In this document: piece after piece, positions 27,380-61,166 of the stretch
Numbering within the stretch: the first letter of the stretch is position 1
How the letters are laid out: each line of letters begins with the position of its first letter
Assembly: GCF_032813545.1 (NCBI RefSeq)
Contig: NZ_CP136520.1
Span: 180,001-244,000 of the forward strand
Origin: Nodosilinea sp. E11
GTDB lineage: Bacteria; Cyanobacteriota; Cyanobacteriia; Phormidesmidales; Phormidesmidaceae
Length of the DNA stretch: 64,000 nt
Direction: 5' to 3'
Translations under genes and position numbers: made by a program
The notes under the pieces: model-generated
Database searches by the model: none
The model's input: the letters and a program-made list of their open reading frames with translations, nothing else
What the model was told of the DNA's origin: nothing

Positions 27380-27453
27380 CGGGATGTAGCGCAGCTTGGT
27401 AGCGCACTTCGTTCGGGACGAAGGGGCCGTGGGTTCGAATCCCGCCATCCCGA
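27380..27453 (+). tRNA. tRNA-Pro (anticodon CGG)
   Basis: The acceptor arms CGGGATG and CATCCCG pair, with discriminator A. The D arm is GCGC-AGCTTGGTA-GCGC, the anticodon arm CTTCG-TTCGGGA-CGAAG places CGG at 27414-27416, and the T arm is GTGGG-TTCGAAT-CCCGC. CCA is not encoded. The tyrosine integrase gene begins 143 bases downstream, so this is the likely integration target. Confidence 0.97.
27431..27453. other. Probable left attachment site (3' end of tRNA-Pro)
   Basis: Tyrosine integrases next to a tRNA generally insert within the T-arm and 3' end, which here would be GGGTTCGAATCCCGCCATCC and the following CGA. I did not find a second copy by eye in the rest of the window, so the right junction is not proven. 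Confidence 0.5.
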
Positions 27454-27595: not shown

Positions 27596-28750
27596 ATGAC
27601 TACTATGCAACCCCCCGTAGCGGCACGCCCGACGCTGAGCCGCGACCTAGATAGAAGCCTTGTCAAGGTAGAAAGCGATAAAGGTAGGCTGAGATTACGC
27701 TTTACCTATGGAGGCACACGCCACTACATAGCCGTTGGCTTGCCTGATTCCCGAGTTAATCGCATCGTGGCCCAGCAGAAGGCGACTCAGATCGAACTGG
27801 ATATTGCCTCCGGCAACTTCGATGAGACCCTCAAAAAGTACAAGCCACCCAAAGCTGCCGCTAGAAAGCGCGAAGCAACCACCGTGACTGGGCTATTTGA
27901 GAAATTCACAGCGGTTCAGACCAAAGCCAAAGACTTGCAGGTGGGCAGTCTGTGCCGCTATGGAGCTACGCAGCGACATTTAGACGCATTTTTCTCAACT
28001 AAGCCAGCAGACAATGTGGATGAGGGCAGTGCCGCCGCTTTTGCCGAGTACTTGCGAAAGCGAGTGGTCGAACGAACGGCCAAAGACTACTTAACCCTAG
28101 TTAAGTCCTGTTGGAACTGGGCTGAGCAGACACTCGGACAAAACCCCTGGGCATCCGTTCTAGAGAGAGTGAAACCAGCCCCTAAACAGAAGGTTAAGCC
28201 TTTTACATTGGCTGAGGTCCAAGCTATCTTGGCGGCGTTTAGAACGGATCGTTACTACCAGCACTACGCCGACTTCGTGACGTTCCTATTCGGTACAGGC
28301 TGTCGTTTTGGGGAAGCTGTAGCCCTAAAATGGAAGCATATTGCCGATGACTACTCAACGGTATGGATTGGCGAATCTGTTTCTAGAGGAGTCCGTAAGA
28401 CCACCAAAACGGGGAAAGATCGGACGATAACCCTTACCCCCACGGTGGCAGAAATGCTATCTGCTAGAAAACCTACCAACGTAGATCCTGAAGCATCAGT
28501 TTTTCCATCGCCGAAGGGAAAGCTCCTCAACGACCATACCTTCCGTCGCCGAGCCTGGACCAAAATCTTGACCCGGCTCGAAATTACCTACCGGAAGCCT
28601 TACTCTACCCGCCATACTGCCATCAGCCATACTCTGGCTAATGGCGCAAATCCTCTAGCGGTAGCAGAGCAAACAGGTCACGATCCTCAAATTTTGTTCA
28701 AACATTATGCCTCCGTCATTCAGAAATCTGCTGTGATGGTGGAATTTTAA
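27596..28750 (+). CDS. int: Tyrosine recombinase/integrase
   Basis: The 384-residue protein has an N-terminal arm-binding-like segment (GRLRLRFTYGGTRHYIAVGL), a core-binding SAM-like region (about 95-190) and the catalytic domain. The catalytic Arg lies in GTGCRFGEAVALKW near residue 236, R-x-x-H in YSTRHTAISH near 338, and His then Tyr in TGHDPQILFKHYAS near 361 and 371. It cuts and joins attachment sites to move the element. GGTAGGAAG precedes the ATG. Its position 143 bases after tRNA-Pro fits site-specific insertion there. Confidence 0.93.
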   Translation: MTTMQPPVAARPTLSRDLDRSLVKVESDKGRLRLRFTYGGTRHYIAVGLPDSRVNRIVAQQKATQIELDIASGNFDETLKKYKPPKAAARKREATTVTGLFEKFTAVQTKAKDLQVGSLCRYGATQRHLDAFFSTKPADNVDEGSAAAFAEYLRKRVVERTAKDYLTLVKSCWNWAEQTLGQNPWASVLERVKPAPKQKVKPFTLAEVQAILAAFRTDRYYQHYADFVTFLFGTGCRFGEAVALKWKHIADDYSTVWIGESVSRGVRKTTKTGKDRTITLTPTVAEMLSARKPTNVDPEASVFPSPKGKLLNDHTFRRRAWTKILTRLEITYRKPYSTRHTAISHTLANGANPLAVAEQTGHDPQILFKHYASVIQKSAVMVEF

Positions 28751-34320: not shown

Positions 34321-36273
34321 CTAACCGACTACCAAATTTTCAGATATTAGTGCTCTGCCATCTGTCCATGGCTCTTCAACAAGCGCCTCCTGAAACTTCT
34401 CATTGCTCAGGTTTGCATGTTCAAGAACAATAATTTGAAATTCAGGAAAAAACTCCTCGCAGAATTCATGCAAAAGGCTAAACATCCTTTCAACAGCAAC
34501 AATATCAGCATTAGAACTCAAGGTTTCTTCAACCGTAATATTCTCCAAGGCTAAATACATATCTCTCGAAGGGAAATAGACTTGCGATGGTTGATCAAGT
34601 ATCAAAAAACGAGGAACTGGTCTTTGTTTCTCTATAAAATGCTTGTGTAAAGCTAAGTGGGCGATCAGATGACATCCCAGCCAATTCTCACCGCTACCCA
34701 TACGCTCCATTGGTATTGGTCTTTCTGGTCTATCTACAATCACAGTTAATTTCTTTAAGTCAAGACGATAAGGTGCCCCACAGTGTTCAAGTTCTAAATA
34801 GTTGGCCCAGTTAGTCATTTGCTGGCCAATTCTATTTAAGATCGATGACATGATTTCATCTTCTTCAACAGGATCGATCTGCGACTCAAAATCTTCAACC
34901 CTTCTGCGAGCTATATCAACATTTGTGCGCAACTCTGAAGTCTCGTCAGCAAAGCTAACAGATTCCAGATAGAGACTTATGCGACCTAAAACACGAGCAA
35001 TTCGAACATTTAAGTCACGCATTCTTTGAGTTGCTTCTTCTTCTTCTAAAATTGCTTGTATAGCAATCTCGACTTCACCTATCTGTTGACGAATTTCTAG
35101 TCGTTCTTCCTTAAGCTGTTGTATATACTCTCTCAATTTAGGCTGTTTTCCTTCTACTATATGAACACTATTTCTTAAATCCTCTAATGAATTTTGTATT
35201 TCTAATGCAGAAGTTACAGGCTGTGAGAGTTCTGAGTTGCATAAGGGGCAAAGACGATTAGTACCATTATTATCATGTCTAAATAAATTGATTGATTCCA
35301 ATCTTATTAGCTGTTGGTTGGCTTCATTTGAATAACCCTCTGCCTCTTTTACAAAAGATTCTGCGGCATCAATTTTCTCTTGCTTCCGCTTTAAATTTGT
35401 ATATAACCCATCCCTTTCCAGTTGGAGGCCTGGAAAACGATCATCGACTATCGCAGGCAAATTAGTAGGTTCCCAGTCAAGAGACTGTCTTAGTAATAAG
35501 AGAATTTGCTCAGTGTTTTCAGTTTCAGCCTCTACTGAGATTAAACCAATTTGTTGAGCCTCTACTAAAAGTCTTCGGCCAACATCAGTTTGTTCGTTGG
35601 CAATAGACAAAGCCTCTTCTAATCTGCGCTGTGCAATTCTAAGCTCTCGACGGGCAACTCGTAACTCTTGCTCTAAGATAAGTTGATTTTCCTGGGTGAT
35701 TCCCAAGAAATACGGTAGAGAATCCTTAATAGCTTGTGGAATAAACTGTTCTTGTTGCCTGTGAAATAAAAGCCGTCTATTAGCTATCTGGTTTTGATCC
35801 TGAAAAAGATAAAAAGTTGAGTGTCTAATGTCCACTCTTAGAGCATCTCTAGACTGTCCTGGATCTGGAGTGTTTTGATTCGCAGAAATTCCAATTAGAT
35901 CTGAAAGAAAGCCTTTAAGAGTTTCGTCATTAGTATTAGGCTCTAAATCAGCTACTTCAGGGATTTCAATTGCTTCACTAATTTCATAATAGGCTTGACT
36001 TTGTGTTGTATTATACCCTGGAGGACTGGGTTTAGCGATAAATAGCTGACTACGAGGGAACTGTAGAAGAACTGCATACCAAGATACTGTATCTCGTATA
36101 ATTCCCTCTGGAATTAGAAAAGTAGATCTCCCAAGGCAATAGTCTACAATATCAATAATAGCTGATTTACCGGTTCTTGATTTCCCAGTAATTATATTTA
36201 CTTTGCCTATTTCAAAGTTTAGGATTCTTTTTTCACCCAATGAATTATAAAGAATAATCGATCTTATCTGCAT
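34321..36273 (-). CDS. ABC-3C system ATPase (DUF3732, SMC-like)
   Basis: The 650-residue protein has a Walker A KVNIITGKSRTGKSAIIDI at residues 25-40, a coiled-coil arm region from about 190 to 480 with a CPLCNSEL zinc-hook-like Cys pair, then the ABC signature GSGENWLGCHLIAHL and Walker B RFLILDQPSQVYFP. Gln in place of the usual Glu after the Walker B Asp is what I recall of the DUF3732 family. These ATPases belong to three-component ABC (ABC-3C) conflict systems. It starts two bases past the stop of the middle component and is AT-rich with few HIP1 sites. A 197-base stretch follows without a gene. Confidence 0.85.
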   Translation of the reverse strand: MQIRSIILYNSLGEKRILNFEIGKVNIITGKSRTGKSAIIDIVDYCLGRSTFLIPEGIIRDTVSWYAVLLQFPRSQLFIAKPSPPGYNTTQSQAYYEISEAIEIPEVADLEPNTNDETLKGFLSDLIGISANQNTPDPGQSRDALRVDIRHSTFYLFQDQNQIANRRLLFHRQQEQFIPQAIKDSLPYFLGITQENQLILEQELRVARRELRIAQRRLEEALSIANEQTDVGRRLLVEAQQIGLISVEAETENTEQILLLLRQSLDWEPTNLPAIVDDRFPGLQLERDGLYTNLKRKQEKIDAAESFVKEAEGYSNEANQQLIRLESINLFRHDNNGTNRLCPLCNSELSQPVTSALEIQNSLEDLRNSVHIVEGKQPKLREYIQQLKEERLEIRQQIGEVEIAIQAILEEEEATQRMRDLNVRIARVLGRISLYLESVSFADETSELRTNVDIARRRVEDFESQIDPVEEDEIMSSILNRIGQQMTNWANYLELEHCGAPYRLDLKKLTVIVDRPERPIPMERMGSGENWLGCHLIAHLALHKHFIEKQRPVPRFLILDQPSQVYFPSRDMYLALENITVEETLSSNADIVAVERMFSLLHEFCEEFFPEFQIIVLEHANLSNEKFQEALVEEPWTDGRALISENLVVG

Positions 36274-36274
36274 T

Positions 36275-36760
36275 TTATGGACGAACTCCCCACATGGTGA
36301 AAAAAGATGCTGGATCTTGGATTTTGGCCATCCATTGGCCTAAAAACTCAGCAGTTCTAATGAGAGATTCTATTTCTGGACTATCTGTGTTGCTGCTCAA
36401 AGAACGTCGTATCCAGGTAACTGTTCCATCCTCTTGAAAAGATATTATCTGGGTCTGACACCCAAATAATATGGCTTCCTTAGTATAAGGAGTTAAATTT
36501 CTCACGCGATTCACGAAATCAATGCGAACCTCGGGATTTTCTCTCAACCATACATGGAGCTTAGTGCGTGTGGTAGTGGGTAAAGTTTGACGTGTTTGAA
36601 TATGCAAAGTAATTGGAAGAACAAGAAATGCTAACGTGTACGGCATACCACGTCCACTTTCTCTCTCAAAGCCCCTAATGCTATATTGAATTAGCAAAGA
36701 GCAAAATGCAGGATTGAATAGATTAGCTATCTCAATAGGTCTTCTTTCCCATGGAAGCAT
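36275..36760 (-). CDS. ABC-3C middle component
   Basis: The protein begins MLPWERRPIEIANLFNPAFC at ATG 36760, 8 bases after the effector stop, with AGGA overlapping that stop. Other conserved blocks are GMPYTLAFLVLPITLHIQTR and LTPYTKEAILFG, and it ends FTMWGVRP. These match the middle component (MC3-like) of ABC three-component systems. Its biochemical role is thought to be the bridge between ATPase and effector. An open frame extends farther upstream, inside the effector gene, but is not needed. Confidence 0.82.
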   Translation of the reverse strand: MLPWERRPIEIANLFNPAFCSLLIQYSIRGFERESGRGMPYTLAFLVLPITLHIQTRQTLPTTTRTKLHVWLRENPEVRIDFVNRVRNLTPYTKEAILFGCQTQIISFQEDGTVTWIRRSLSSNTDSPEIESLIRTAEFLGQWMAKIQDPASFFTMWGVRP

Positions 36761-36770
36761 AATGAGGTTC

Positions 36771-37955
36771 CTATGAAACCGGCAATAATTGGGTAAGCCT
36801 TTCAACAAATTTCGGATGCCAACATATAGTTGGTGACATCTGATCTGCCAGGATGTGGTAGCTTCCACGCATAACATATTCTTCAGAAACTTGTGGGCGT
36901 ATTCGAATATCTGCTTTCTGATCCATCCAATTATATAGTTGACGCCCAAATTGTTGGTGCATTGTCTCGTTTTCGTCTTCAATAATTAATTCATCTTGGA
37001 GCATTAAGCGATATCGATCCCATTCATCAACTAACTTCTTCTCATAGTGTTCGATTTCATCACCAAATAACAGCTCCTCACGAGCCCATCTTGATCTTTG
37101 CTCAAATGCTCGGTAATAGTCTAGTATTGCTTTCTCTATGCGCTTGTTATTGATCGATATAGCTTTCAGTTGTATAACAAAGCGCCTAGTGTCTGCGTCA
37201 GCATCAGGTGGATTAGACGGTTCAGCATTAAAATAATCTATTGGCAATGCTTCAGGCTTAAACTGCTCTGCAATGTCTCGAATTTTGTCACTGACTTCAA
37301 ATCCAGAAACTGGGACAGTAGACGCGCCGTTAAGATGGTTGATTATTTTGCTAAACCACCAGCCCTCTAACCTCTCATACAAGCTATCTAAATGATCTCG
37401 TCTTACAGAAAGTTTTATTCTATTTTTTATGTTCAAAACAACATTAATAATATTAGAAGAGTTGTCAATAATATGAATTGCGTTTACCAATTGCTCTTGT
37501 TGAGCTGGTGTCAGTTCATTGAAGGCGTCAAATGCTTTGGCAAGACTTTGGCTATCAGAGGTTTGCGCAATATTCCTCAACTGCTGTGTAGCAAGTTTGG
37601 GATTCCTGTGAAGTCCAGGCTTTAAAAGAAATGAGACTGAGTTGTCAGGGGCTACGCCTGTAGTAACGAGGGTCAGTAGCGTGTCAGAATTGACTGAGCC
37701 ATCTTTCACAAAACTACTCCATACTCGAATAGTCTTCCAAAGATCACTGCTTCTGTCAGTAAGCGATGCTGGATTAGTATGATGCTTTAGTTGTAAGAGT
37801 TCAATGGGACTTCCTTGTTCCTCAAACGTGACGTCATCAAGGCTTTCAATAGAAACCTGTAATTCCTCTCGATTTTCTAGAATGAGGTCTAATGCATAGC
37901 GGACTTGGTAGAGATAACCAAGTGCTTGAGGCCCTGCTGAAAAACTTGAACTCAT
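36771..37955 (-). CDS. ABC-3C effector with nuclease-like N-terminus
   Basis: Residues 1-60 read GPQALGYLYQVRYALDLIL and later ESLDDVTFEE, then IELLQLKHH. Asp40 or Asp41, Glu52 and Lys57 (Q-L-K) fit a PD-(D/E)XK or DUF4297/Cap4-like nuclease core. The last 70 residues (VMRGSYHILADQM, then ICWHPKFVERL) resemble the C-terminal domain shared by ABC-3C effectors. It is the first gene of the cassette; ATG 37955 follows a 169-base AT-rich gap that should carry the promoter. Confidence 0.8.
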   Translation of the reverse strand: MSSSFSAGPQALGYLYQVRYALDLILENREELQVSIESLDDVTFEEQGSPIELLQLKHHTNPASLTDRSSDLWKTIRVWSSFVKDGSVNSDTLLTLVTTGVAPDNSVSFLLKPGLHRNPKLATQQLRNIAQTSDSQSLAKAFDAFNELTPAQQEQLVNAIHIIDNSSNIINVVLNIKNRIKLSVRRDHLDSLYERLEGWWFSKIINHLNGASTVPVSGFEVSDKIRDIAEQFKPEALPIDYFNAEPSNPPDADADTRRFVIQLKAISINNKRIEKAILDYYRAFEQRSRWAREELLFGDEIEHYEKKLVDEWDRYRLMLQDELIIEDENETMHQQFGRQLYNWMDQKADIRIRPQVSEEYVMRGSYHILADQMSPTICWHPKFVERLTQLLPVS

Positions 37956-45603: not shown

Positions 45604-46338
45604 ATGGTGCAGTTGATTGAGAAACGCAACACAAACTACCTGCCTCTGTTTGTCTTGGGCAGTGTGGGGTTGCAGCTGGTGATGCTGGTGGTCTTGTTTC
45701 TTCAGGCCGGTGCCTTGAGCCGTCTCAGCCGCCAAGATGCCCCCACCCTGGTGCAAATGCAGGACGGGCAGGCCATTCGAGTCGGCACTATGGGCTCTCG
45801 GGAGCGTACCCCAGAAACAATCCGGCGCTTTGTCAATGACACCCTGGTGCTGATGTTCAACTGGAGCGGTAGCCTGCCTGCCACCACGGCAGAAGAGGCC
45901 AGTCAGCCCAGGGCCGACCCCGGTCTACCGATTGAGGTGGAACGGGGCAGACGCAATATTGCCACCGCCAGTTGGCAGGCCAGCTTTGCCTTTTCGGAAG
46001 ACTTCCGCCAGGACTTTCTGAAGCGGGTGGCCGAACTGACGCCACCGGGGGTCTTCACTGGCACGAGTCAGGTGGTGATGGTGATCAACCACGTCGGCAG
46101 CCCCGAGGTGGTTGGAGAGGGCCGCTGGAAGGTGGCGGTGGTGGCCCATCTGTATGTCTTTAACGACGCCAACGCCCTGGGGCAGGCGATCCCTTTTAAC
46201 CGGGAGGTGTTTGTCGAGGCCGTCACCGCGCCAGCCGTGCCTGATGGCGACACCCCCTTGGAGCAGGCCATCTACAGCATTCGCCAAACTGGCCTGCAAA
46301 TCTATGCCATCCGTGAACTTGACCGGGAGGACTTGTGA
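45604..46338 (+). CDS. VirB8/TraE-like inner-membrane protein
   Basis: One N-terminal membrane helix (LGSVGLQLVMLVVLFLQAG) is followed by a soluble periplasmic domain of about 180 residues (SWQASFAFSEDFRQDFLKRV and so on). A single-pass protein of this layout, before a VirB10-like protein, fits VirB8 or TraE. No specific motif is visible. AAAGGAC precedes ATG 45604. Confidence 0.55.
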   Translation: MVQLIEKRNTNYLPLFVLGSVGLQLVMLVVLFLQAGALSRLSRQDAPTLVQMQDGQAIRVGTMGSRERTPETIRRFVNDTLVLMFNWSGSLPATTAEEASQPRADPGLPIEVERGRRNIATASWQASFAFSEDFRQDFLKRVAELTPPGVFTGTSQVVMVINHVGSPEVVGEGRWKVAVVAHLYVFNDANALGQAIPFNREVFVEAVTAPAVPDGDTPLEQAIYSIRQTGLQIYAIRELDREDL

Positions 46339-47804
46339 TGACGACACCCAACAATCTGTGGGACGACCAAGAGATGGCCGACCTGGTTGGACTCCACCTA
46401 CCAGAACCTGCCACTACCGAAGAACAGGATGCCTATCCAGTTGCACCCGCCACCACCCTGGAGCCAGAACCCCTTCTGGATGCTGAGGATATTGACGGGC
46501 AGGCCTTAGGCGATCGCAAGCCCAAACTATCTCTGGCGGCTAACCCCTTTACCAAGCTGGGTGTTGTCGCGGCTGGAACCGGTCTGGTGATCGGGGTTTT
46601 AGCCGTCTTCACCAGCGGGGTGATGAAAAACGACTCTCCACTGGCTGAAGAGGTGCAAGCCGATTTTCCAGAACCCATGGTTGAGGGAGAGGAGCTGAGT
46701 GCTACAGATGACCGGGGCCAGCTGCTCACCGATTTAGCGATGGGGCGTCAGCAGGCTGAACTGGAGGCCTTGGCCAATGAAGAGCCTACGGCTCAACCGG
46801 AAGCGCCAACGGCCAGAGAAACCCCTGAATTTTCTCCGGCTCCTCCACCCCCGTCACGACCGCCCCACACCGTTGCGGCGCGACCAGCCCCGGCACCGCT
46901 GCCGCCTCGACCAGCCCCCGTATCCTCTGCTGTTTCAGCCCGTCCTGTAGTTTCCCAACCGGTGGCCCAACCCGTCGTAGATCCAACGGAACGATGGCTA
47001 GCGCTGTCCCATTTGGGGAGCTACGGACAGGGCAGTCCCTTACCGCAGGAAACCTTTGCACCGCTAGTCACGGAGGCTCCAGCGCCAGTGGCTCAAGTCA
47101 GCACCCTACCCTCACCCCGTGCCATCAACCATGCCGAAGAATCGGCCATTCTCCAGGGCCAGCCGGTGGCATTGCCCCCGACATCGCCCCTGCTGCTGAC
47201 TGGCACCCAAGCCCCCGCTGTACTGGAAACGCCGTTGATCTGGGCAGCAGAGACAGACAGCCCTCAGTTCGTGGTGCAGCTAACAGAACCCTTGCTGACT
47301 GCCGACGGAGAGATCGGCTTACCGGCAGACACGTCGCTGGTGGCACAGGTGGCATCGGTGGTGGACAGCGGCCTGGTGCAGCTAGCAGTGGTCTCGTTCA
47401 TTCAGGCGGGTCAGGAGATCCCGCTGCCCGCTGGAACCGTTCAACTGCGGGGGGTGGAGGGCACCCCTCTGATCGCTCAGAAGTACGACGACCCAGGCAT
47501 GGATATCGCTCGCATGGATGCCACGATGGCGGCTATGGCTGGGTTATCTCGGGCGGCGGGGTTAGTGAACCGGCCCAAAACATCCTCGGTTATCACCTCT
47601 GTTGGAGGCAGCGCGATCACCCAAGACACCGGAGAGCCCAACCTTCTGGCTGGAATTCTTGAAGGCGCGTTTGAGCAGCTATCAGGGCAGATGGAAGCGC
47701 GGAATCAGGCAGCGCTGGATGAAATCTTGAATCGTCCCGTCGTTTGGTATTTGCCAACCGGCACTGAGGTCGAACTGTACGTGAATCAAACGGTGGTGCT
47801 ATGA
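46338..47804 (+). CDS. VirB10/TrbI-like protein
   Basis: A cytoplasmic N-terminus with Leu/Pro-rich segments is followed by one membrane helix (LGVVAAGTGLVIGVLAVF), a Pro-rich periplasmic linker (residues 160-240) and a C-terminal beta-barrel-like domain ending VWYLPTGTEVELYVNQTVVL. VirB10 spans both membranes and couples ATPase energy to the outer complex. The ATG at 46338 overlaps the previous TGA. A GTG three bases upstream is the other choice. Its stop TGA overlaps the next ATG. Confidence 0.75.
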   Translation: MTTPNNLWDDQEMADLVGLHLPEPATTEEQDAYPVAPATTLEPEPLLDAEDIDGQALGDRKPKLSLAANPFTKLGVVAAGTGLVIGVLAVFTSGVMKNDSPLAEEVQADFPEPMVEGEELSATDDRGQLLTDLAMGRQQAELEALANEEPTAQPEAPTARETPEFSPAPPPPSRPPHTVAARPAPAPLPPRPAPVSSAVSARPVVSQPVAQPVVDPTERWLALSHLGSYGQGSPLPQETFAPLVTEAPAPVAQVSTLPSPRAINHAEESAILQGQPVALPPTSPLLLTGTQAPAVLETPLIWAAETDSPQFVVQLTEPLLTADGEIGLPADTSLVAQVASVVDSGLVQLAVVSFIQAGQEIPLPAGTVQLRGVEGTPLIAQKYDDPGMDIARMDATMAAMAGLSRAAGLVNRPKTSSVITSVGGSAITQDTGEPNLLAGILEGAFEQLSGQMEARNQAALDEILNRPVVWYLPTGTEVELYVNQTVVL

Positions 47805-48551: not shown

Positions 48552-50261
48552 ATGACCTCATATTTTTTCAGGCGCAGGCGGCTATGGCGGCCTGTGATCG
48601 GGATTCTTGTTTTAATTTTGGCGATCGCGCTTCACGGCTGGCGGGTGCAACCCGCCCACTCCAGCCTCCAGCCAGGCTCACCAGTGCCGGTGATTCAGGA
48701 TCAGATTTTAGGCACCAAGCCCGACTGGGTACAGATCACCCTGCGCACCCTGCCTGCGGCGCTGGAGTCTGGCTCGTTTGAGGCTCCAGCGGATCTGATC
48801 CGTCTCTTGGGCTACGACCCGTCGCGGGTCTGGCAGGCTGGGCAAACCGCTGACCAGTACATGCAGCTGGGCGATTTTCAGGAGAGCTTTCAGCTCCAGC
48901 AGTTCTCGCTGTATGAGATTGCCGCCCTGGTGGGTCTGGATTGGCCTGCCCTACGGCTGGCGGATTTTGCCCTGGTGGCATGGCAAACCCTGGGGGATTT
49001 GGTGCAGGCGCTGCCTGATTTAGCCAATCGACCAGTGGAGTCGGTGGCCCCGATCTCTGACCTACTCAAGGGACAAGTCGATCCGCAAACTGCGATCGCC
49101 GAGGTGCTTCAAGATGAGGCACTGGCGTCACTCAGCCTAGGAGACCTCGACCTGGAGCAGTACGGGCTAGGGGATATTCCAGGGTTGATCGAGGCCCCGC
49201 TGGAGAGCTTCCGCGACTGGCAGCAGTCCGTTATCGGCCAGGTGCCCGGTCTCGCGAATGTCCCCTTCGCCAACTTTCCCAACCCCATCGTGGAGCAAGG
49301 CGTGGTGGTGGGCCAGGTGGATGTGGTGTTTGGCCCGGCGGAAGGCAACCGCACTAACACCATCAGCGGCAGTTATGTGGAGGGGTTCAATGTGCCCTGT
49401 GACGCTGACTGCGCCCACCTCGAAATCGGGCAGCCCACCCTGGTGGAAGGTACCCAGTGGGTTTCCGGCAAGTACCAGCAGGTACGCGGCGGACGCGGGG
49501 CCTTGGCTGCCGCCAATGGCGGGGTTGAACCCACCGGTCGCCATCCCTTTGGCAATGCGTTCAAGGTGGCGGTGCTCGACACCGATGAGGCCTCTGGCAC
49601 CGCTGAAACCGGGCTATATTTCCGCATGTGCGTTCGCAACCTGTTTGTGGACTTAGGCTGCACTCCCTACTTCATCGGCCCCATTCCCTGGCTGCCGGTG
49701 CAGGAAGAGGGCATGGTCTTCTTGGGCCAAATCAAGGAAGGCCTTTCCACCACCGATTCAGCCGACGTTGCAGCATCGAAAGGAATCGACCCGCAGACCG
49801 GCGAACCTAAACTCAACCCAGCACCTGTCACCAGGGCTTCAGGCTCTCCAGGTACTGCTACTGGGCGATTCATTCACCCCGCACCGGGCTATGGCGTCAC
49901 CAGTAGTTTTGGCTATCGCACTCACCCAATCCATGGCGATCGCCGTCTCCACAGCGGCACCGACTTTGGCACTCCCACTGGCACCCTCATTCGAGCGGCT
50001 GACGGTGGGCAGGTCATCTTTGCTGGCATCAGCGGCTCCCTCACCAGTGGCTACGGCAGGCTCGTCATCATCAACCACGGCAATGGCGTAGAGACCTACT
50101 ACGCCCATCTGCAAGGCTTTTTCGTGCAAGCGGGCGACATCATCGCCCAAGGCGATCCGGTCGGTCGCGCCAACAGTACGGGTTGGTCAACGGGGCCGCA
50201 TTTGCACTTTGAGGTACGCCAGAACGGTCAGCCCCAGAACCCTATGAACTATCTCAGTTAA
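48552..50261 (+). CDS. M23 peptidase of the T4SS (peptidoglycan hydrolase)
   Basis: The 569-residue protein has an N-terminal helix (VIGILVLILAIALHGWRV), a long middle, and a C-terminal M23 domain: HSGTDFG near residue 467 and THPIHGD before it, NHGNGVETYYAHLQG, and HLHFEV near 550. The His/Asp/His zinc residues are present. Such enzymes open peptidoglycan for the mating channel. It sits in the operon with a short 22-base gap on each side. Confidence 0.85.
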   Translation: MTSYFFRRRRLWRPVIGILVLILAIALHGWRVQPAHSSLQPGSPVPVIQDQILGTKPDWVQITLRTLPAALESGSFEAPADLIRLLGYDPSRVWQAGQTADQYMQLGDFQESFQLQQFSLYEIAALVGLDWPALRLADFALVAWQTLGDLVQALPDLANRPVESVAPISDLLKGQVDPQTAIAEVLQDEALASLSLGDLDLEQYGLGDIPGLIEAPLESFRDWQQSVIGQVPGLANVPFANFPNPIVEQGVVVGQVDVVFGPAEGNRTNTISGSYVEGFNVPCDADCAHLEIGQPTLVEGTQWVSGKYQQVRGGRGALAAANGGVEPTGRHPFGNAFKVAVLDTDEASGTAETGLYFRMCVRNLFVDLGCTPYFIGPIPWLPVQEEGMVFLGQIKEGLSTTDSADVAASKGIDPQTGEPKLNPAPVTRASGSPGTATGRFIHPAPGYGVTSSFGYRTHPIHGDRRLHSGTDFGTPTGTLIRAADGGQVIFAGISGSLTSGYGRLVIINHGNGVETYYAHLQGFFVQAGDIIAQGDPVGRANSTGWSTGPHLHFEVRQNGQPQNPMNYLS

Positions 50262-50272
50262 GGAGTTTAGCG

Positions 50273-50791
50273 ATGAGACTTAACCGCACTGTCTTCGCTG
50301 GTTTAGCAGGCATCTGTCTGCTGCTGGTCGGTCTAATCTCTGTTGTGGGCCTGAATCTGGCTCGGGCGTCAGACCCCGTTCCAGAGGCGGTCTACGACTG
50401 CCTGCCGCCCCAGACCCAGATCACAAAACTCTGGGGCCGAGTTGAAACAGCCTCCGGCAGCTACTTCCTAATCGGGGCCGGTGAAGGCGAGACCTACCAG
50501 GAAGTGCTGATTTACCTGGATGCTCAAGCCGCCTGCCGATCGCTGCTACCGGAGGATGACCCGGTGCTGAGTCACTATATCCCGCTGAACCTGGCCCGCG
50601 AGTTAGCCCTCCAGCGCTACACCCAAGTGATGCAAGAACAGGGTGGGCGCGACGCCTATCAGCAGCAGTTGACCGAGTATCTGATGGCAGCCCCCGACGG
50701 TACCCGCAGTCAGTTTCCTGAAGAATACCTCTGGGCGCTAGAGCAACTGGGTATTGAGCTACCGCCCAACAGCTATGAGGTGCTGCGCTGA
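50273..50791 (+). CDS. Unknown signal- or anchor-bearing protein, 172 aa
   Basis: An N-terminal hydrophobic segment (GLAGICLLLVGLISVVGL) is followed by a soluble domain with two Cys (YDCLPPQTQITKLWGRVET, AACRSLLPEDD). The rest is helical. It lies between the M23 peptidase and the coupling protein, so a mating-channel accessory is likely. AGGAG is 7 bases before the ATG; TGA overlaps the next ATG. Confidence 0.6.
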   Translation: MRLNRTVFAGLAGICLLLVGLISVVGLNLARASDPVPEAVYDCLPPQTQITKLWGRVETASGSYFLIGAGEGETYQEVLIYLDAQAACRSLLPEDDPVLSHYIPLNLARELALQRYTQVMQEQGGRDAYQQQLTEYLMAAPDGTRSQFPEEYLWALEQLGIELPPNSYEVLR

Positions 50792-52521
50792 TGCGTTACA
50801 CCACCGAACAACCATCTCTGTTGGGGCAGGTGGATTCCACCTCTACTCAATCCATCTCCCAGCTGGTGACCTCACTCCAGTCCCGCCAGGGGCTCACCCT
50901 GCTCGGCTGTGCTGTGCTGATTGCCGCCTTCTCGCTAATGAGCCAAGGCAAGAAAGGGAAGCTCGCCACCAGCCGCTTTGGTGGCAGCCCCGAGAAAGCC
51001 GCTGCCCGCAAGCGTGCGGTACGACAGATTCAGGAGCGCAAACGCAACGCGGTTTCTCTCTACATTGGCAAGCCCACCCGCAAGCAAGATGCTCGGTCTC
51101 TCTATTTGCCCGACCTTCAGCGGGGCATCGCTGTTTGTGGAGGGCCAGGTTCTGGGAAAACCTTCAGCATCATCGACCCGCTGATTCGCTCCGCCCTTGA
51201 CCAGGGTCTACCGGTAGCGATGTACGACTTCAAGTATCCGACCCAAAGTGCTCGACATGCCGCCTATGCCGCCAAGCTGGGCTATGACGTGCGCGTGCTG
51301 GCCCCTGGCTTTCCTGAATCCGAGGTGTGCAACCCCATTGACTTCCTCCGCAGCGAATCCGATGCCGAGATGGCGCGGCAAATCGCCACGGTGCTGAACA
51401 AAAACTTTCGGCTGATGACCCAGAGCAGCGAAGACGGATTCTTTGCCGCCGCTGGTGATCAGCTGACAGAAGCCCTGTTGATGCTGGCCAAATCCACCCA
51501 GCACCCCGACATCATGACCGCCCAGGCGGTGCTGGGGCTGACCAATTTGGGCAATCGGGTAGCGGCGGCTCACGGCATGAACAGCTGGATTCGAGTCTCC
51601 TTTAACCAGTTGATTGGGGTGAAAGATGCCGAGAAAACCGCCAGCGGCATTGTGGGCAGCGCCAGCGAGACCTTTACCCGCTTTATGAAAGAAGGGGTAT
51701 TGGGGGCGTTCTGTGGTCAAACCTCTATCCCTCTCGATTTAACCGGCAAACAGCTGCTGATTCTGGGGATGGATCGAGAGCGGCGGGATGTGGTGGGGCC
51801 GCTAGTAGCCACGGTGCTGCACATGCTGGTCACCCGCAATGTGGCCCAGCGTCGGCAAGATCCGTTAGTTGTCGCGATTGACGAGTTGCCCACCCTTTAC
51901 TTACCCACCCTGGTGCAGTGGCTGAACGAAAACCGGGAGGACGGTCTAGCGGTCATCCTTGGCTTTCAAAACCTGGTGCAGCTAGAGAAAACCTACGGTC
52001 GCGAGCTGGCCCGCGCCATCTTGGGGGCCTGTGCTACCAAAGCGGTCTTCAACCCCCAGGAATACGAAGCGGCCCGCATGTTCTCAGACTTTCTGGGGGA
52101 TGAGGAAATTCAGCACAAGCAAAAATCCCGCAATCGCGGCGGCGGTAAGTCCAGCACCACCATCTCCGACCAGGAACGTACCCGCAAGCTATTTGAACCC
52201 AGCCAATTTTTACGCCTGCCACCAGGTAAATGCATCTTGATCAACCCCGGTTTTACCTCCCGAGGAGAAGCCGCGATTCCTATCCAGCAGGCAATCAAAA
52301 TTCCCAAGGCTGATGTTCAAGCCAGCGAGGGGAGTAAAGCCCTGTGGGCCAAGATCCACGCTCGCCTCGTGCGCCGCAGCCCGCAGCGGATGCCCACTGC
52401 CGCTGATTTAGAAAAGCGGCGACAGATGGTGGAAGCGATGCTGCCCGAGCCTCAAGCCCCGGTCAACTCGGCCTACCCTGACCCCGCTGGCCTGATCGAT
52501 AAATACAGCAGTTTGCTTTAG
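50791..52521 (+). CDS. VirD4/TraG-type coupling ATPase
   Basis: A membrane segment (LTLLGCAVLIAAFSLM) lies near residue 40, the Walker A AVCGGPGSGKTFSIID near 117, Walker B LVVAIDELPTLYLP near 358, and LGFQNLVQLEKTYGRELA near 395. It is the coupling protein that delivers relaxase-DNA to the channel. At 576 residues it has a normal size. It is translationally coupled with the preceding gene. Confidence 0.88.
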   Translation: MRYTTEQPSLLGQVDSTSTQSISQLVTSLQSRQGLTLLGCAVLIAAFSLMSQGKKGKLATSRFGGSPEKAAARKRAVRQIQERKRNAVSLYIGKPTRKQDARSLYLPDLQRGIAVCGGPGSGKTFSIIDPLIRSALDQGLPVAMYDFKYPTQSARHAAYAAKLGYDVRVLAPGFPESEVCNPIDFLRSESDAEMARQIATVLNKNFRLMTQSSEDGFFAAAGDQLTEALLMLAKSTQHPDIMTAQAVLGLTNLGNRVAAAHGMNSWIRVSFNQLIGVKDAEKTASGIVGSASETFTRFMKEGVLGAFCGQTSIPLDLTGKQLLILGMDRERRDVVGPLVATVLHMLVTRNVAQRRQDPLVVAIDELPTLYLPTLVQWLNENREDGLAVILGFQNLVQLEKTYGRELARAILGACATKAVFNPQEYEAARMFSDFLGDEEIQHKQKSRNRGGGKSSTTISDQERTRKLFEPSQFLRLPPGKCILINPGFTSRGEAAIPIQQAIKIPKADVQASEGSKALWAKIHARLVRRSPQRMPTAADLEKRRQMVEAMLPEPQAPVNSAYPDPAGLIDKYSSLL

Positions 52522-54485: not shown

Positions 54486-57400
54486 ATGGTAGAAGACGCC
54501 CAACAGCAGATGGTGAACCACTTCACTGCCCATTTCTTGGGCGGTGAAGGGTTTACGACGATCACCACCGCCCGACAACAGGCGGCGCTGGTGTTGGGCA
54601 CGCCGGTCAAACCCGGCACGGCGCTGGCGAAGCAGGTGGATGAAGCGGTGGAGGGGGCGGTGGTGCGAGCAGCCCAGGGGATTCTTCAAGCCTCGCCTAC
54701 CCCCCGCGACGCCTATGAGCGGCTGGTCGAATTGCACAACCGCCAGCCAGCCCTGAATGTTCGTTCCTCCACCAGCGTGTTGCAGCAGGCCTACAGCACG
54801 CCCATTCCCATCGCATTTTTAGCTTCTACCTTGGCGGGCATTACCCCAGAGACCACTGTCTACGAACCCTCCGCCGGGCATGGCGCATTGCTGGTGGGAA
54901 CTGACCCCACTCAAGTAAGCGTCAATGAACTCAATCCAGACCGCGCCGCTGACTTGCGGGTTCAAGGCTACACCGTCACGGAGCATGACGCAGCGGAGTA
55001 TCAGCCGGAACGTCTGCATAACGTGGTGATTGCTAACCCTCCCTTTGGCGCGGTGCGAGATGCACAGGGGCAGCGCAAGCGGTTCAAGTTGCCCGGCAAC
55101 CTGCGGGGGACGACCCAGATTGATCAGGCGATCTCGTTCCAAGCTCTAGGGGCGATGAAGGACGATGGTCGCGCCGTGCTAATTCTGGGCGGCAAGCTGG
55201 GGGTAGACGCAGAGCTGCGGTCTGAGCGCTACAACAGCCTGGAAAGTCGAGGCTTCTTTTATGCCCTATATCAGCAGTACGCCGTTACCCAACACATTTC
55301 CATTTGGGGTGACCTGTACCGCAAACAGGGTGCGGGTTTTCCGATTGATTTGATTGTGATTGAAGGTCGAGGACGGTCTGAACGTCCGTTACCTGCCGCT
55401 GATGTCCCGATTATCTACAAGTCGTTTGCTGAACTTAAGGAGTTGATTCCCCATGAACCTATCCACCACGCCCGTATCTCCCTGGACGTACCCGTTCATG
55501 ACCAGCAAGTACCCCAGCTTTCCCAATCTCTGGACGCTGGAGGGCCTGGGAACGCTATTCATCGTCAAGGTGCCACCAGCGCTAGAGCAACTGAGCGAAG
55601 CCACTTACCTGCAGTTGATGCAAACTCGACTGGACAGAATGATTCAGGCCTCCGTCTCGGAAACCTCCCAAATCGAGACGCAACAAGGGCTGGCCACGAC
55701 CCTCAGCGAATTGGACTGGGCTCAGGAGATTCCGATACTGGAGCCGGACGAGGAGCCGGACTTGGCTCTGGAGTATTGGCGGCAGCAGTGGGCGGAAACC
55801 TTGATTCGGAGCAATTGGCGGTTTCAGGAACGACTGGGCCACTACGGGGGGATCTTTCCGGTAACGCCCGTAACCCCCAGCTATCCAGATTACCTGGACT
55901 GGCTGAGCCTGCACGACGAAACCACGCTAGAGGCGTGGCTGAACGAACTGAGCCTGTAGCCCTGCACCCAGACCTGATTATGAATACTCCTCTTTCAACC
56001 GGCGAGGCTGTGGCCCCGTCGGCAGACACCTATGATGTCCAGCCCCGGCAGGTGGCCTATGTGCCCAAAAGCAAAGGCTTTTCGACTCAAACCCTGATTC
56101 CCTTCAACATGGCCAGTGCGGCCCAGCAGGCACTGGAGTGCTTTGAGCAGCACCACGGCGACATTGATGAGTACCTGGCCACCCGACTGGGTTATGGTTC
56201 TGTTTCTGAACTCCACGGCTACTTCAGCGCTGAGCAGGTCGATGCCTCGGCCCTGGCGATCAGCAATATCGAGCGGGGGGCCGGGTTCATCACGGGCGAC
56301 CAGACCGGCATTGGCAAGGGCCGCATCTGTGCCAGCATCATGCGCTATGCCCAGCAGCAGGCTAAGATCGCCCTATTCATAACTAAGGACAAACCCCTCT
56401 ATGCCGACATGATGCGCGATGTAGGGGATATCGGGATGCGGCGGTTTTCGCCCTTCATTACCGATAGCGGTACTGAGATTCCGCTAGCCAATGGTGCGGC
56501 GCTGAAAACTGCCGGGGCCGCCAAGCAGAAGGCGGAAATGCAGGCGATGATTCAGCGGGGGAACCTGGGCCGCTACAGCGCGGTGTTCACCACCTACAGC
56601 CAGCTTCAGACCGTAGGAAAGAAGGAACCGTTACGGCGCACGTTCCTGAGACGGATGGCTCCAAATGCCATCTTGATTCTGGACGAGGCCCACCAGGCAG
56701 GGGGCAGTAAAGGGGGATGGAAAGAAGCGGGGCCACCGGATCGGGCGGATTTTGTGCGAGAGTTGATCGACCTGTCTTCGGGAGTGTTTTACTCGTCGGC
56801 GACCTATGCCAAACGGGCCGATGTGATGGATCTCTATGCTCGGCGCACTGACCTGCGGCTGGGCGTGAGCAGCATGACGGCGCTGGAGAATATCTTGACG
56901 CGGGGTGGAGTGCCGCTTCAGCAGATTGTCGCCAGCAAGTTTGTCGCCTCCGGGCAGATGCTGCGCCGCGAGCGCTCCTATGAGGGCATTTCGTTTCAAG
57001 CCAAGACGGTGCCGGTGGATCGGGAGGTAGCGGACGACTTCTCGGCGGCGATGCGGGCCATTAAGGATTTTGACCGGGCCAAGCAGAAGGCGGTGAAAGC
57101 GATCAGTAATGAGGCGAAGGCGGAAGCGAAGGCCTTGGGGCAGGATGGGGCGATTGGCGAGGTGGGAGCCAGGAGTACCAACTTCACCTCGTTGATGCAC
57201 AACTGCATTGAGCAGGGTCTGTTGGCCCAAAAGGCGGATGCGACGGTGGAGGAAGCCATTGCGGCCCTCCAGAGGGGCGAAAAGCCTGTGATTACGGTAG
57301 CCAACACCATGGGCAGCTTCATCCAGGCCCATGCGGAGTCCCAAGATTTGAGCCCTGGGGATGCAATGAACTTGTCCTTTGGGGATCTGCTGGAGCGGTA

Positions 57401-60400
57401 TCTGGAGCGATCTAGGGACGTGGTGGTGACAGACTACCAGGGCCACTCCACTCGGCTGCGACTCAGCGATGAGCAATTAGGCGGCGATGCCGTTCTGGCC
57501 TATGAAGAAGCGCTGGACTGTATTCGCGAGAGTGACTTCACCGGCATTCCCATCAGCCCGATTGACTATATTGAGCAGCAACTGGAGCGGGCGGGCTACC
57601 GGGTTACCGAAGTCACCGGGCGGACGGCGGGCATCGAGTATGGGGCCGATGGCACCATGGCCTACAAGGTTCGACTGGGGGAGGAAAAGAAGGCCAAGGG
57701 CAAGATCGATGCCGTGGCCCAGTTTAATGCGGGTGATGCGGATGTCATTCTGCTCAACTGCTCGGGTTCGACCGGGATTTCGCTCCATGCCTCAGAGAAG
57801 TTTGCTGACCAGCGGCCTCGCCACATGATTGTGGCCCAGTCGGAACGAGACATTAACGTGTTCATGCAGATGTTGGGGCGGGTGCATCGCACCGGACAGG
57901 TGGCGCTGCCTGCTTACACGCTGCTGATGGGAGATCTTCCAGCCGAAAAGCGACCGGGGGCAATCCTCTGTCGCAAGATGGCGAGCCTGAATGCCAACAC
58001 CACAGCGGCACGGGAAACGGATATCTCGCTGAACACCGTCGTAGATTTCATGAACCCCTACGGGGAGCAGGTGGTGACGGAACTGCTGGCGGATGACCCA
58101 GACCTCAATGCCAAGCTAGATTTCCCCGCTGCTCAAACCGGGAACGATGCCTCGGATATTGCCCTGATCAAGAAGGTGACAGGGCGGATTCCGCTGTTGC
58201 CCATTGCTGAACAAGAAGCGGTCTACAGCCTGATTGAGTCGGAGTACCGCGACATGGTAGATCAGGCCAGGGCGATGGGGGAGAACATTCTGGAAGCGGA
58301 TCAGCTGGATTTGGAGGCCAGGCCGCTGGCTCGGATGGAGGTGATGGCCGATGACAGCGAGACAGCCAGCGAGTTTACGGGGCCAGTGTATCTGGAGTTG
58401 GTGGAGGCGAAGAGTGAGAGCAAGCCGCTGACCCAGCTCCAGGCGATCGATGTGGTGCGGGAGTCGGTGGGGTTGGCGGAGGTGACGTCGGTGAAGACTC
58501 ACGACTCGGATGCTCTGGCGGCAACAGCCCGTCAACAGACGGCAGCGACAATTACCGAGTTGGAAACGCAGACGAACCAGTATCGGCAGGCGGCAGTGGC
58601 CCAAAAGCAAGATAGCAAGGCGATTGAGAAGCTAAATGACCGCATTGAGCAGCAGCTCACGCATGTCTCTACAGTGCTAGAACAGTTCGTCCCAGGGACA
58701 CCGCTGCGGCTGGTGACACCAGCTAGCAAGACCATTCTCTATGGGGTGGTGGCAGGGGCCGATGCCAAAAAGCGGTCAGGGAGCCCGGCGGCACCGAACC
58801 GCTGGAAGTTGAGGATTTTGGTGGCAGACTCAGCCCGGCAGATTACGGTGCCGCTGTCGAAGTTCAACACAGGGCGGAGCGGAGCGCTTGATGCCACGGT
58901 GCAAACCGAAGATTGGTTTGGCAATAGCGTCTACTCGCTGTTCGACATGCAGCAAGAGGCGGGGCGGGTCAACCGGCAGATCTTCACGGGGAACTTGATC
59001 AAGGCGTTTGAAAAGTATTCCAACGGGAAATTAGTGAACTATACCGACTATCGGGGCGAGGTCTGCCAAGGGCTGATTATGCCCAAGGGCTTTGATATTG
59101 AGTCTGAACTGACCAAGGAGCCGGTGGCGTTCAAAGAACCACAGCAAGTGTTTAGGTTTCTAACGGAGCTGACGAATCGGCAGGGGACGGTGAAAACCCT
59201 CGATGAGTTGTTGCTGCTAAAGCCCCAGCAGGCGGGGGAGGGGTTTATCCTACAAGCGCCGAAGTCGAAAGAGTCGGGCGGGCGGTACTACTTGGATGAA
59301 GACTTGATTGCGGCGGCGGGATCGGATTTTTATTCCGTGGCCGATCGCATGGAAGTGGTCATTCCCCCAGAACGGCTGGAGCGGGTGCTGGGGGTGGTGA
59401 TGCACCAGCGGAACTATACCCTGGCGGCGTTTGAGTTTAAGGAGGTGGCGCGGCAGTTGATGGGGGTGTCGTTGCCGACGTTGGAGAAGGTGGAGGTGGA
59501 AGCGGTTAAACCCCCGATTGTTTCTCAGCCGGTTGCATCTGCAAATCAGCCCAGATCCGAGCCAGCCGTGGAAAGACCTGCGGTCGAAACTCCGGTGTCC
59601 CCACCCGCACCCAATCACCCCCCGATGGGTCAACTGGAGAAACGGATTCTACGGTTTTTGAGGAATGCCGGGATTGAGCAAGATGTGATGGCCTCCCAAG
59701 ACTTTCACCAGCGGATTGAGAATGAGCCCTTCATTCCGCTGGTGGTGGAGCGACAGGGGGATGAGCTGTATTTGACCCATTACCTGACTCAGAACGGCGA
59801 TATGTTCATCGACTCGGAGATGGTGTTTCGGGTGCGGGGCGAGGGGCATATCGAGTTTAAGGAGACAGCGGTACAGAGCCTGCGCGGTGGGGAGTCGCGG
59901 CTACCTGATCGCGCTTTTGCCCAAGTCTTCTCCAAAAACATTGTGCAGCAGGGGTTTGCAGAAGCTGCTCATGTCCAGCTTCAGGCTCAGGCAGCACCCG
60001 AAGTGGAGATGGTGACCCCGCAGGAATCGGAGGATGAGCGATCGCAGATGCCGAGTGATATACGGCAGTATCTGGAGGTGAAAGACCAGTACCCCGATGC
60101 GATCGTGCTGGTGCAGTCGCCGGATCAGCGGTTCTATGAGGCCTTTTTTGAAGGCGCTCGGCCCTTGATCGAGCATCTGGAGATGATTGGCACCAGCATG
60201 GAGTCTGGGGTGAAGGAACTCGGGCGGGTGCCGGTGGCGGGGTTTCCGGTGGGGAGTCTGCACAAATACTTGGATAAGCTGACCCAGCAGGGGGAGGTGG
60301 TGATTGCAGAGTTGGAGGGGGCGATCGCCATCCACCCCCATCATCCCCCCGAACCAACAGCCCTAGAAGAACCAACCCAAGCTCCTGTTGAACCGATTCC

Positions 60401-61166
60401 CCAACCCGAGACCCCAGCACCAGCGTCTAAGGAGCCTGAATTTCAGATACAAAATCTGTTTGATCTCGACCAGTTCAATGGGGCACCACAAAATGGACAT
60501 AAGGAGCGCCAGACTGCCGATCCAGCCTGGACTGCTCTAGTGAAAGACCTTCAACCAACTGCGCCATTGTCAGAGGTGACCGCAGATCCGCCGATACCCC
60601 CGTTGTCTAGCCCCACGGTTCCAGAAGTAGCTGACCAGGGGCAACAGGCCAACGATGCAGCGCCCAAGGCACCAGAACCCTTTCCAGGGCAAGCCTTAGA
60701 GACTTTGCGGGACTGGTACCGCGCGGCCCGTGACTTGGGCCACGACCCGCTGCACCTAGAACAGATCAAGCAGTTAGGCCTTTCAGCCAAACAAGCCAAT
60801 GGCGATGGTTTTGGCCTTGCGCCAAACCTACAGAAAGCGATGGCTCAAGATCTGGCTCAATATCAGGCGTTGCAGCAGCGGGGAGAATACGTGGCCCAAG
60901 CATCCCAAAAAATCTTGTCGGTGATCGGGCAGACCCGAGGCCCCCATACCCAGTTTCGCGGCAAAGTCTATGAACTGAAGCAGACCGCCGACCGGCTGAC
61001 TGTCCGCCGAGTGACGCCTCAACCCCAAACTATTTTAGAAATGGCCCAGGGAAAAATTCAGCGCACAGTGGTGACGGCTGAAGACTGCCAGCGGTTTCAG
61101 CGATTTGTGCAGCGCCTAGAATCAGACCGTGTTCCCACTCCAACCTCAGCAGGACTTGAACGATGA
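54486..61166 (+). CDS. Giant polyprotein: N6-methylase, strawberry-notch-type helicase, MutS-I-like domain
   Basis: The 2226-residue frame has a methylase half with YEPSAGHGALLV near residue 126 and VVIANPPFG near 181; a Gly/Asp/Arg-rich linker at about 325-495; a helicase with GDQTGIGKGRICASI near 604, ILDEAHQAGG near 730 and LGRVHRTGQVALP near 1131; a Pro-rich hinge; a segment QYLEVKDQYPDAIVLVQSPD near 1861 that resembles MutS domain I; and a last module shared with the preceding gene. Phage P1 DarB and plasmid polyvalent proteins combine methylase and helicase to protect entering DNA. That role is inferred here. A second ATG in frame is at 55980. Confidence 0.85.
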   Translation: MVEDAQQQMVNHFTAHFLGGEGFTTITTARQQAALVLGTPVKPGTALAKQVDEAVEGAVVRAAQGILQASPTPRDAYERLVELHNRQPALNVRSSTSVLQQAYSTPIPIAFLASTLAGITPETTVYEPSAGHGALLVGTDPTQVSVNELNPDRAADLRVQGYTVTEHDAAEYQPERLHNVVIANPPFGAVRDAQGQRKRFKLPGNLRGTTQIDQAISFQALGAMKDDGRAVLILGGKLGVDAELRSERYNSLESRGFFYALYQQYAVTQHISIWGDLYRKQGAGFPIDLIVIEGRGRSERPLPAADVPIIYKSFAELKELIPHEPIHHARISLDVPVHDQQVPQLSQSLDAGGPGNAIHRQGATSARATERSHLPAVDANSTGQNDSGLRLGNLPNRDATRAGHDPQRIGLGSGDSDTGAGRGAGLGSGVLAAAVGGNLDSEQLAVSGTTGPLRGDLSGNARNPQLSRLPGLAEPARRNHARGVAERTEPVALHPDLIMNTPLSTGEAVAPSADTYDVQPRQVAYVPKSKGFSTQTLIPFNMASAAQQALECFEQHHGDIDEYLATRLGYGSVSELHGYFSAEQVDASALAISNIERGAGFITGDQTGIGKGRICASIMRYAQQQAKIALFITKDKPLYADMMRDVGDIGMRRFSPFITDSGTEIPLANGAALKTAGAAKQKAEMQAMIQRGNLGRYSAVFTTYSQLQTVGKKEPLRRTFLRRMAPNAILILDEAHQAGGSKGGWKEAGPPDRADFVRELIDLSSGVFYSSATYAKRADVMDLYARRTDLRLGVSSMTALENILTRGGVPLQQIVASKFVASGQMLRRERSYEGISFQAKTVPVDREVADDFSAAMRAIKDFDRAKQKAVKAISNEAKAEAKALGQDGAIGEVGARSTNFTSLMHNCIEQGLLAQKADATVEEAIAALQRGEKPVITVANTMGSFIQAHAESQDLSPGDAMNLSFGDLLERYLERSRDVVVTDYQGHSTRLRLSDEQLGGDAVLAYEEALDCIRESDFTGIPISPIDYIEQQLERAGYRVTEVTGRTAGIEYGADGTMAYKVRLGEEKKAKGKIDAVAQFNAGDADVILLNCSGSTGISLHASEKFADQRPRHMIVAQSERDINVFMQMLGRVHRTGQVALPAYTLLMGDLPAEKRPGAILCRKMASLNANTTAARETDISLNTVVDFMNPYGEQVVTELLADDPDLNAKLDFPAAQTGNDASDIALIKKVTGRIPLLPIAEQEAVYSLIESEYRDMVDQARAMGENILEADQLDLEARPLARMEVMADDSETASEFTGPVYLELVEAKSESKPLTQLQAIDVVRESVGLAEVTSVKTHDSDALAATARQQTAATITELETQTNQYRQAAVAQKQDSKAIEKLNDRIEQQLTHVSTVLEQFVPGTPLRLVTPASKTILYGVVAGADAKKRSGSPAAPNRWKLRILVADSARQITVPLSKFNTGRSGALDATVQTEDWFGNSVYSLFDMQQEAGRVNRQIFTGNLIKAFEKYSNGKLVNYTDYRGEVCQGLIMPKGFDIESELTKEPVAFKEPQQVFRFLTELTNRQGTVKTLDELLLLKPQQAGEGFILQAPKSKESGGRYYLDEDLIAAAGSDFYSVADRMEVVIPPERLERVLGVVMHQRNYTLAAFEFKEVARQLMGVSLPTLEKVEVEAVKPPIVSQPVASANQPRSEPAVERPAVETPVSPPAPNHPPMGQLEKRILRFLRNAGIEQDVMASQDFHQRIENEPFIPLVVERQGDELYLTHYLTQNGDMFIDSEMVFRVRGEGHIEFKETAVQSLRGGESRLPDRAFAQVFSKNIVQQGFAEAAHVQLQAQAAPEVEMVTPQESEDERSQMPSDIRQYLEVKDQYPDAIVLVQSPDQRFYEAFFEGARPLIEHLEMIGTSMESGVKELGRVPVAGFPVGSLHKYLDKLTQQGEVVIAELEGAIAIHPHHPPEPTALEEPTQAPVEPIPQPETPAPASKEPEFQIQNLFDLDQFNGAPQNGHKERQTADPAWTALVKDLQPTAPLSEVTADPPIPPLSSPTVPEVADQGQQANDAAPKAPEPFPGQALETLRDWYRAARDLGHDPLHLEQIKQLGLSAKQANGDGFGLAPNLQKAMAQDLAQYQALQQRGEYVAQASQKILSVIGQTRGPHTQFRGKVYELKQTADRLTVRRVTPQPQTILEMAQGKIQRTVVTAEDCQRFQRFVQRLESDRVPTPTSAGLER
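55453..55959 (+). CDS. Nested gene in the +1 frame of the polyprotein linker, 168 aa
   Basis: This frame lies wholly inside the polyprotein gene. AAGGAG (55437-55442) is 10 bases before its ATG. The product is normal-looking: SWTYPFMT-like start region with KYPSFPNLWTLEGL, later ALEYWRQQWAETLIRSNWRF and PSYPDYLDWLSLHDE. Its codons favour G or C in the third position, while the polyprotein frame here is a low-complexity Gly/Arg/Asp linker with AT-rich third positions. It ends 20 bases before an in-frame ATG of the helicase part. I do not recognise a family. Confidence 0.65.
   Translation: MNLSTTPVSPWTYPFMTSKYPSFPNLWTLEGLGTLFIVKVPPALEQLSEATYLQLMQTRLDRMIQASVSETSQIETQQGLATTLSELDWAQEIPILEPDEEPDLALEYWRQQWAETLIRSNWRFQERLGHYGGIFPVTPVTPSYPDYLDWLSLHDETTLEAWLNELSL

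Follow-up and report, generated by a model that had tools for sequence, protein, structure and literature searches.

The locus examined here raises the question of whether the DNA between an adenine methylase and a helicase encodes one protein or two. The locus lies in a stretch of 64,000 nucleotides from Nodosilinea sp. E11, which was analysed as a whole (the window; positions 180,001 to 244,000 of contig NZ_CP136520.1). Positions 27380-55000 of the window are an integrative conjugative element. A tRNA-Pro (cgg) gene (27380-27453) adjoins the gene for a tyrosine integrase (27596-28750), and the element also encodes TrbI (46335-47804), an M23 peptidase (48552-50261), and a VirD4/TraG-type coupling protein (50791-52521). 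The TrbI and VirD4-type genes are located just upstream of the gene in question. The window also contains ABC-three component (ABC-3C) genes (DUF3732, MC3, and CTD7; 34321-37955, minus strand) in a low-GC patch (about 0.40), and this ABC-3C system is likely a defence cargo of the element.

The gene in question is an uninterrupted open frame of 2226 codons (54486-61166; this and all features described below are on the plus strand), referred to as frame 0. Its product is composed of an adenine methylase, a low-complexity linker, a strawberry notch (SWI2/SNF2-like) helicase, a DUF6908 domain, and a MutS_I domain, in this order. The helicase core (residues 516-1300; 56031-58385) is identified by Pfam (AAA_34, E-value 1.9e-19; Helicase_C_4, 7.1e-24) and by relatives, and DUF6908 (59640-59960; 8.5e-18) and MutS_I (60060-60302; 1.3e-10) by Pfam. 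The N-terminal part (residues 1-320; 54486-55445) matches Pfam N6_Mtase only below threshold (0.1), and its identity as a methylase rests on an invariant NPPF motif and on homology. According to tblastn and HMM boundaries in relatives, methylase conservation stops at the point where the nested gene described below starts. The linker (55446-56030) is rich in Gly, Arg, Ser, and Asp and is predicted by AlphaFold2 to be disordered. Its amino acids are poorly conserved in relatives, yet stop codons are absent.

A second, complete ORF of 168 codons (55453-55959), hereafter N, is contained in the long ORF on the same strand, in the +1 frame. An AAGGAG resembling a Shine-Dalgarno sequence (55437-55442) lies ten bases before the ATG of N, a TGA in the frame of N (55444-55446) lies just upstream of the same ATG, and the stop codon of N falls just before the helicase. 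The initial annotation had reported the 168-codon frame from 55453 with AAGGAG ten bases upstream, its G/C-rich third positions, and the low-complexity reading of the surrounding 2226-codon frame over the same bases, and each of these claims held. At third positions, the GC content reaches 0.74 in the nested frame and 0.72 in the helicase, compared with 0.43 in frame 0. In codon usage, N scores +0.19 and held-out helicase codons +0.25, against -0.47 for the linker read in frame 0. Synonymous resampling with the N protein fixed leaves frame 0 open in 0.15% of trials (5.5 stops expected), and resampling with the frame-0 protein fixed leaves the nested frame open in 3.8%. Judged on this single sequence, the N ORF is only moderately surprising; its conservation is decisive. 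The N protein is acidic here (pI 4.2) and across the family (median pI 4.55; below 5.5 in 94%), and is often rich in tryptophan (eight residues here).

Relatives of N occur at the same place in other genomes. With N alone as the query against 386 genomes of the cyanobacterial phylum, relatives were found in other genera, down to 1e-6, and plasmid-record matches fall inside genes annotated just 'helicase', at the same place and in the same frame. In the cyanobacterial genomes searched, N is found only alongside the methylase-helicase dyad. A scan with the methylase-helicase alignment returned 80 genome loci and 80 viral contigs. The methylase and the helicase share one frame in 165 loci (88 non-viral, this window counted, and 77 viral), and in 159 of these (84/88 non-viral and 75/77 viral) an ORF of 85 codons or more begins where the methylase ends. 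In 135 of the 165, N starts exactly 4 or 7 nt downstream of the point where methylase homology ends. An HMM built from 10 cyanobacterial sequences recovers N in most non-viral loci, and an HMM built from an alignment without viral sequences (A3) recovers N in many viral contigs (best E 3.7e-12). Some distant members, such as that of Bacteroides phage BS-TP4 (HMM E 0.33), are assigned by position only.

Most annotations examined leave N out. PGAP calls the N ORF in Gloeobacter morelensis, splitting the big gene there. In Pseudomonas aeruginosa plasmid pIHMA87, a gene that PGAP lists as hypothetical (IHMA87_RS32625; locus L228, 1977-2480) is an N candidate (HMM E 0.0038); it is nested in an open frame 0 that runs into the helicase, and the annotated helicase start is placed after it. 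The Nodosilinea genome itself has a second, distant methylase-helicase copy (L047, G000:C1:385813-389349) with its own nested +1 ORF of 178 codons. In a Leptolyngbya SIOISBB MAG (L072, 5860-11838), the N frame continues into that of the helicase, so that N and the helicase are fused, and the methylase is in another frame. This arrangement could be either a genuine change or an assembly error.

Both frames are kept open over the linker. Frame 0 has no stop codon in 88/88 non-viral and 77/77 viral same-frame loci, and frame +2 has a mean of 12.4 stops over the linker in the non-viral set. Negative controls are provided by Acinetobacter, Rhizobium, Xanthomonas, Vogesella, T. xiamenensis, and a P. 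aeruginosa plasmid, in which the linkers have no full-length N-like +1 ORF; the Acinetobacter linkers carry 11-12 stops in the +1 frame.

The two frames are nevertheless constrained in different ways. Among 19 close relatives, the difference rates per site at nested codon positions 1, 2, and 3 are 0.099, 0.085, and 0.218, respectively. Nested positions 1, 2, and 3 correspond to frame-0 positions 2, 3, and 1. The differences are therefore concentrated at nested position 3, which is frame-0 position 1, indicating that N, and not frame 0, shows the coding pattern. Amino-acid identity is higher in the nested frame than in frame 0 in 8/8 groups tested; the contrast is weaker in group C (Nodosilinea PCC 7104-like). 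Changes that are silent in N and would create a stop in frame 0 occur at 0.16 of expectation. As the counts pool all sequence pairs under a simple mutation model and are not independent, they show the direction of the effect and not its exact strength. Computationally, N is thus shown to be under purifying selection as a protein, and the linker amino acids to be nearly free, with frame 0 only held stop-free.

The start of N is conserved as well. Clustering of N starts at 60% identity gives 86 clusters, 82 of which start with ATG. With one start per cluster, a Shine-Dalgarno core of 5 or more matching nt lies upstream of 65% of N starts vs 6.6% of 5219 control ATGs. In 55/86 clusters, at most 7 nested-frame codons are open upstream of the start, and in many viral loci there are none. 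The conserved ATG and the Shine-Dalgarno-like motif suggest that N has its own translation start, which is inferred without initiation data.

AlphaFold2 predicts N (47 natural N sequences) as a globular, mainly helical protein with a mean pLDDT of 88.6 and a pTM of 0.85. The frame-0 reading of the same DNA at the same loci gives a pLDDT of 51.0, a pTM of 0.11, and no secondary structure. Scans of 53 N sequences with Pfam, NCBIfam, and PHROGs assign no family and give only scattered matches to one or two members, and a sequence profile search of the PDB gives no credible match. Foldseek with the N model finds nothing in PDB and BFVD at E <= 0.001, and a second look with VIA-align gives a best Z of 2.6. 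Since family and fold matches are absent, the biochemical role of N is not assigned.

Free-standing copies of N exist in one lineage. In Leptolyngbya boryana NIES-2135 (NIES2135_62090; plasmid loci L038 and L133) and in FACHB-502 (L117), N is a separate gene just upstream of the helicase, and the order is permuted to helicase-methylase in one large ORF. Searched against plasmids, free N hits nothing beyond its own record and a second L. boryana plasmid, which carries an identical N. The frame equivalent to frame 0 has 18 stops over the free-standing N of L. boryana and 9 over that of FACHB-502, indicating that the frame over N is open only where the fused protein crosses it. In the helicase tree, the nested state covers a large clade, and both free-standing cases are sisters within the cyanobacterial nested clade. 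Therefore, the free state is probably derived in that lineage. In 62/86 clusters, though not in all, codon usage agrees better with N than with the linker, and linker length correlates with N length (Spearman 0.62). The simplest reading, which is inferred, makes N the older of the two frames; joining the methylase and the helicase would have created the linker from the out-of-frame sequence of N. The term 'overprinted', which the initial annotation applied to N, may need reversing, as codon usage suggests that the linker is overprinted on N.

Taken together, the region is very likely dual-coding (probability about 0.88), with N a real, conserved gene nested out of frame in the methylase-helicase linker. 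There is no transcript, ribosome-profiling, or mass-spectrometry evidence, and translation of N is inferred. The proposal of a nested gene in the initial annotation thus held, on the strength of homologues, selection, position, start signal, a folded model, and free-standing copies. It had also stated that a lack of homologues, with substitutions in relatives preserving only the polyprotein frame, would refute the proposal. The opposite is observed: the search with the 168-residue product found homologous loci, albeit of no known family, codon-position GC and frame conservation favour the N frame over frame 0, and substitutions preserve the nested frame, with frame 0 nearly free except for stops.

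We propose that frame 0 would be translated into one long methylase-linker-helicase protein of the mobile-element kind, which probably protects or modifies the DNA of the element during transfer. On the same mRNA, ribosomes would start internally at the ATG of N, at the end of the methylase, and produce a separate N protein. N may be a small acidic protein that partners or regulates the methylase-helicase. This role is inferred, without functional data, because the cyanobacterial genomes searched show N nowhere without that gene, and because N lies beside the helicase when free-standing.

The main rival concerns this role. N may act apart from the methylase-helicase, for example as an acidic DNA mimic that inhibits restriction or another defence, with the big gene a mere carrier. 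Such a role remains possible. N is consistently acidic, and shares strong acidity with the DNA-mimic antirestriction proteins Ocr and ArdA; the methylase-helicase dyad is itself an antirestriction-type module (PMC5512222). However, the occurrence of N solely alongside the dyad in the searched cyanobacterial genomes, and the position of free N beside the helicase, suit a partner better. Foldseek does not match N to known antirestriction folds, although such a fold is not excluded thereby.

The alternative raised in the initial annotation is that the methylase and the helicase are separate genes, with the helicase starting at the frame-0 ATG downstream of the nested stop (55980-55982) and the openness of frame 0 a coincidence. 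In this reading, which is very unlikely and not supported here, N would be an ordinary gene between them. In its favour, a frame-0 ATG is often present after the nested stop in cyanobacterial relatives, the methylase and the helicase of Persicobacter are separate genes overlapping by 4 nt, and PGAP splits the Gloeobacter gene in such a manner. However, frame 0 over the linker is free of stops in 165/165 same-frame loci, whereas N alone would leave about 3-12 by synonymous resampling and free-standing N has 9-18. Moreover, the methylase would be left without a stop codon of its own. Overall, the frame-0 ATG is not enriched after the nested stop: it is present in 23/86 clusters, with control rates of 0.41 in the helicase and 0.085 in the linker.

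Programmed +1 frameshifting from the methylase frame, which would yield a methylase-N fusion and no separate N protein, is likewise very unlikely. N does follow the methylase directly in the +1 frame, and a few relatives have at least 90 open +1 codons upstream. However, the nested frame has a stop within a few codons before the ATG, here (the TGA described above) and in most clusters. With no more than 7 open codons upstream in most clusters, +1 frameshifting is not a general route to N. The conserved ATG and Shine-Dalgarno motif and the existence of free-standing copies as genes of their own also argue against it. The open path between frames upstream of N that a +1 frameshift product needs is blocked here by this TGA.

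That the N ORF is a by-product of the composition of the low-complexity linker is all but excluded: resampling leaves the nested frame open by chance at the low rate given above for this locus, and in more than half of trials in a few relatives, but the linkers of relatives without N have no full-length +1 ORF, and N is conserved as a protein, has a predicted fold, and is known in free-standing copies.

Several known systems resemble this arrangement in part. In the lambda spanin genes Rz/Rz1 (PMC6139136), too, a larger gene of a mobile element contains an entire small one, on the same strand and in the +1 frame. Spanins exist in embedded, overlapped, and separated architectures, and the partners act together. 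The proteins and functions differ, and N is longer, globular in prediction, and located in an interdomain linker. No single spanin family has both embedded and separated architectures (PMC6139136), whereas members of the N family occur both nested and free. Similarly, in Bacillus subtilis, the small comS gene is read in its own frame within srfAB, a very large bacterial gene for a multidomain protein (PMC12915044); N differs in its length of about 170 codons, its predicted fold, and its recurrence in cyanobacterial elements, other bacteria, and phage contigs. The recently reported long overlapping genes of enterobacteria (e.g., PMC9927249) are also long ORFs that overlap annotated genes and are barred by standard annotation. 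The ones in PMC9927249 are antisense and have expression data, whereas N is on the same strand and has broad conservation, selection, and a predicted fold, but no expression data yet.

The frame-0 protein belongs with the DNA methylase-SWI2/SNF2 helicase dyads and the P1 DarB-like polyvalent proteins (Iyer et al. 2017, PMC5512222), in which mobile-element dyads are described as DNA-protecting modules. Here, an adenine methylase is fused N-terminally to a strawberry notch-type helicase with MutS_I, on a conjugative element. The 2017 survey reports polyvalent proteins with MutS_I from Bacteroidetes and Firmicutes, and a scarcity of polyvalent proteins in cyanobacteria; here, DUF6908 and MutS_I (window 59640-60302) lie toward the C terminus of a polyvalent-type protein from a cyanobacterium. 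The word 'overlap' is absent from the main text of that survey, and a nested gene is not described in its relevant passages. No description of a nested N gene was found in the open-access literature searched; subscription journals and preprints were outside the scope of the search.

Long same-strand nested genes are thought to be rare in bacteria, and annotation rules exclude them. Pipelines miss N or trim the big gene to fit it, as in Gloeobacter morelensis and probably in P. aeruginosa pIHMA87. As N is traceable over 86 clusters, with a negative outgroup and free-standing descendants, it is unusually well suited, as a natural experiment, to showing how one piece of DNA serves two proteins and which frame is older. 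The finding also suggests a missing component of the methylase-helicase modules carried by mobile elements. A bolder reading, which taken as a whole we favour only narrowly, is that N is a general component, mostly missing from annotations, of the methylase-strawberry notch helicases that mobile elements carry across a large clade, which spans plasmids and integrative elements of cyanobacteria as well as other bacteria and phage contigs, and that its fold has no detected relative. The conserved gene would then be the nested one, the 'host' frame over it would have been created by out-of-frame reading when the two flanking genes fused, and N would have been freed again later in one lineage.
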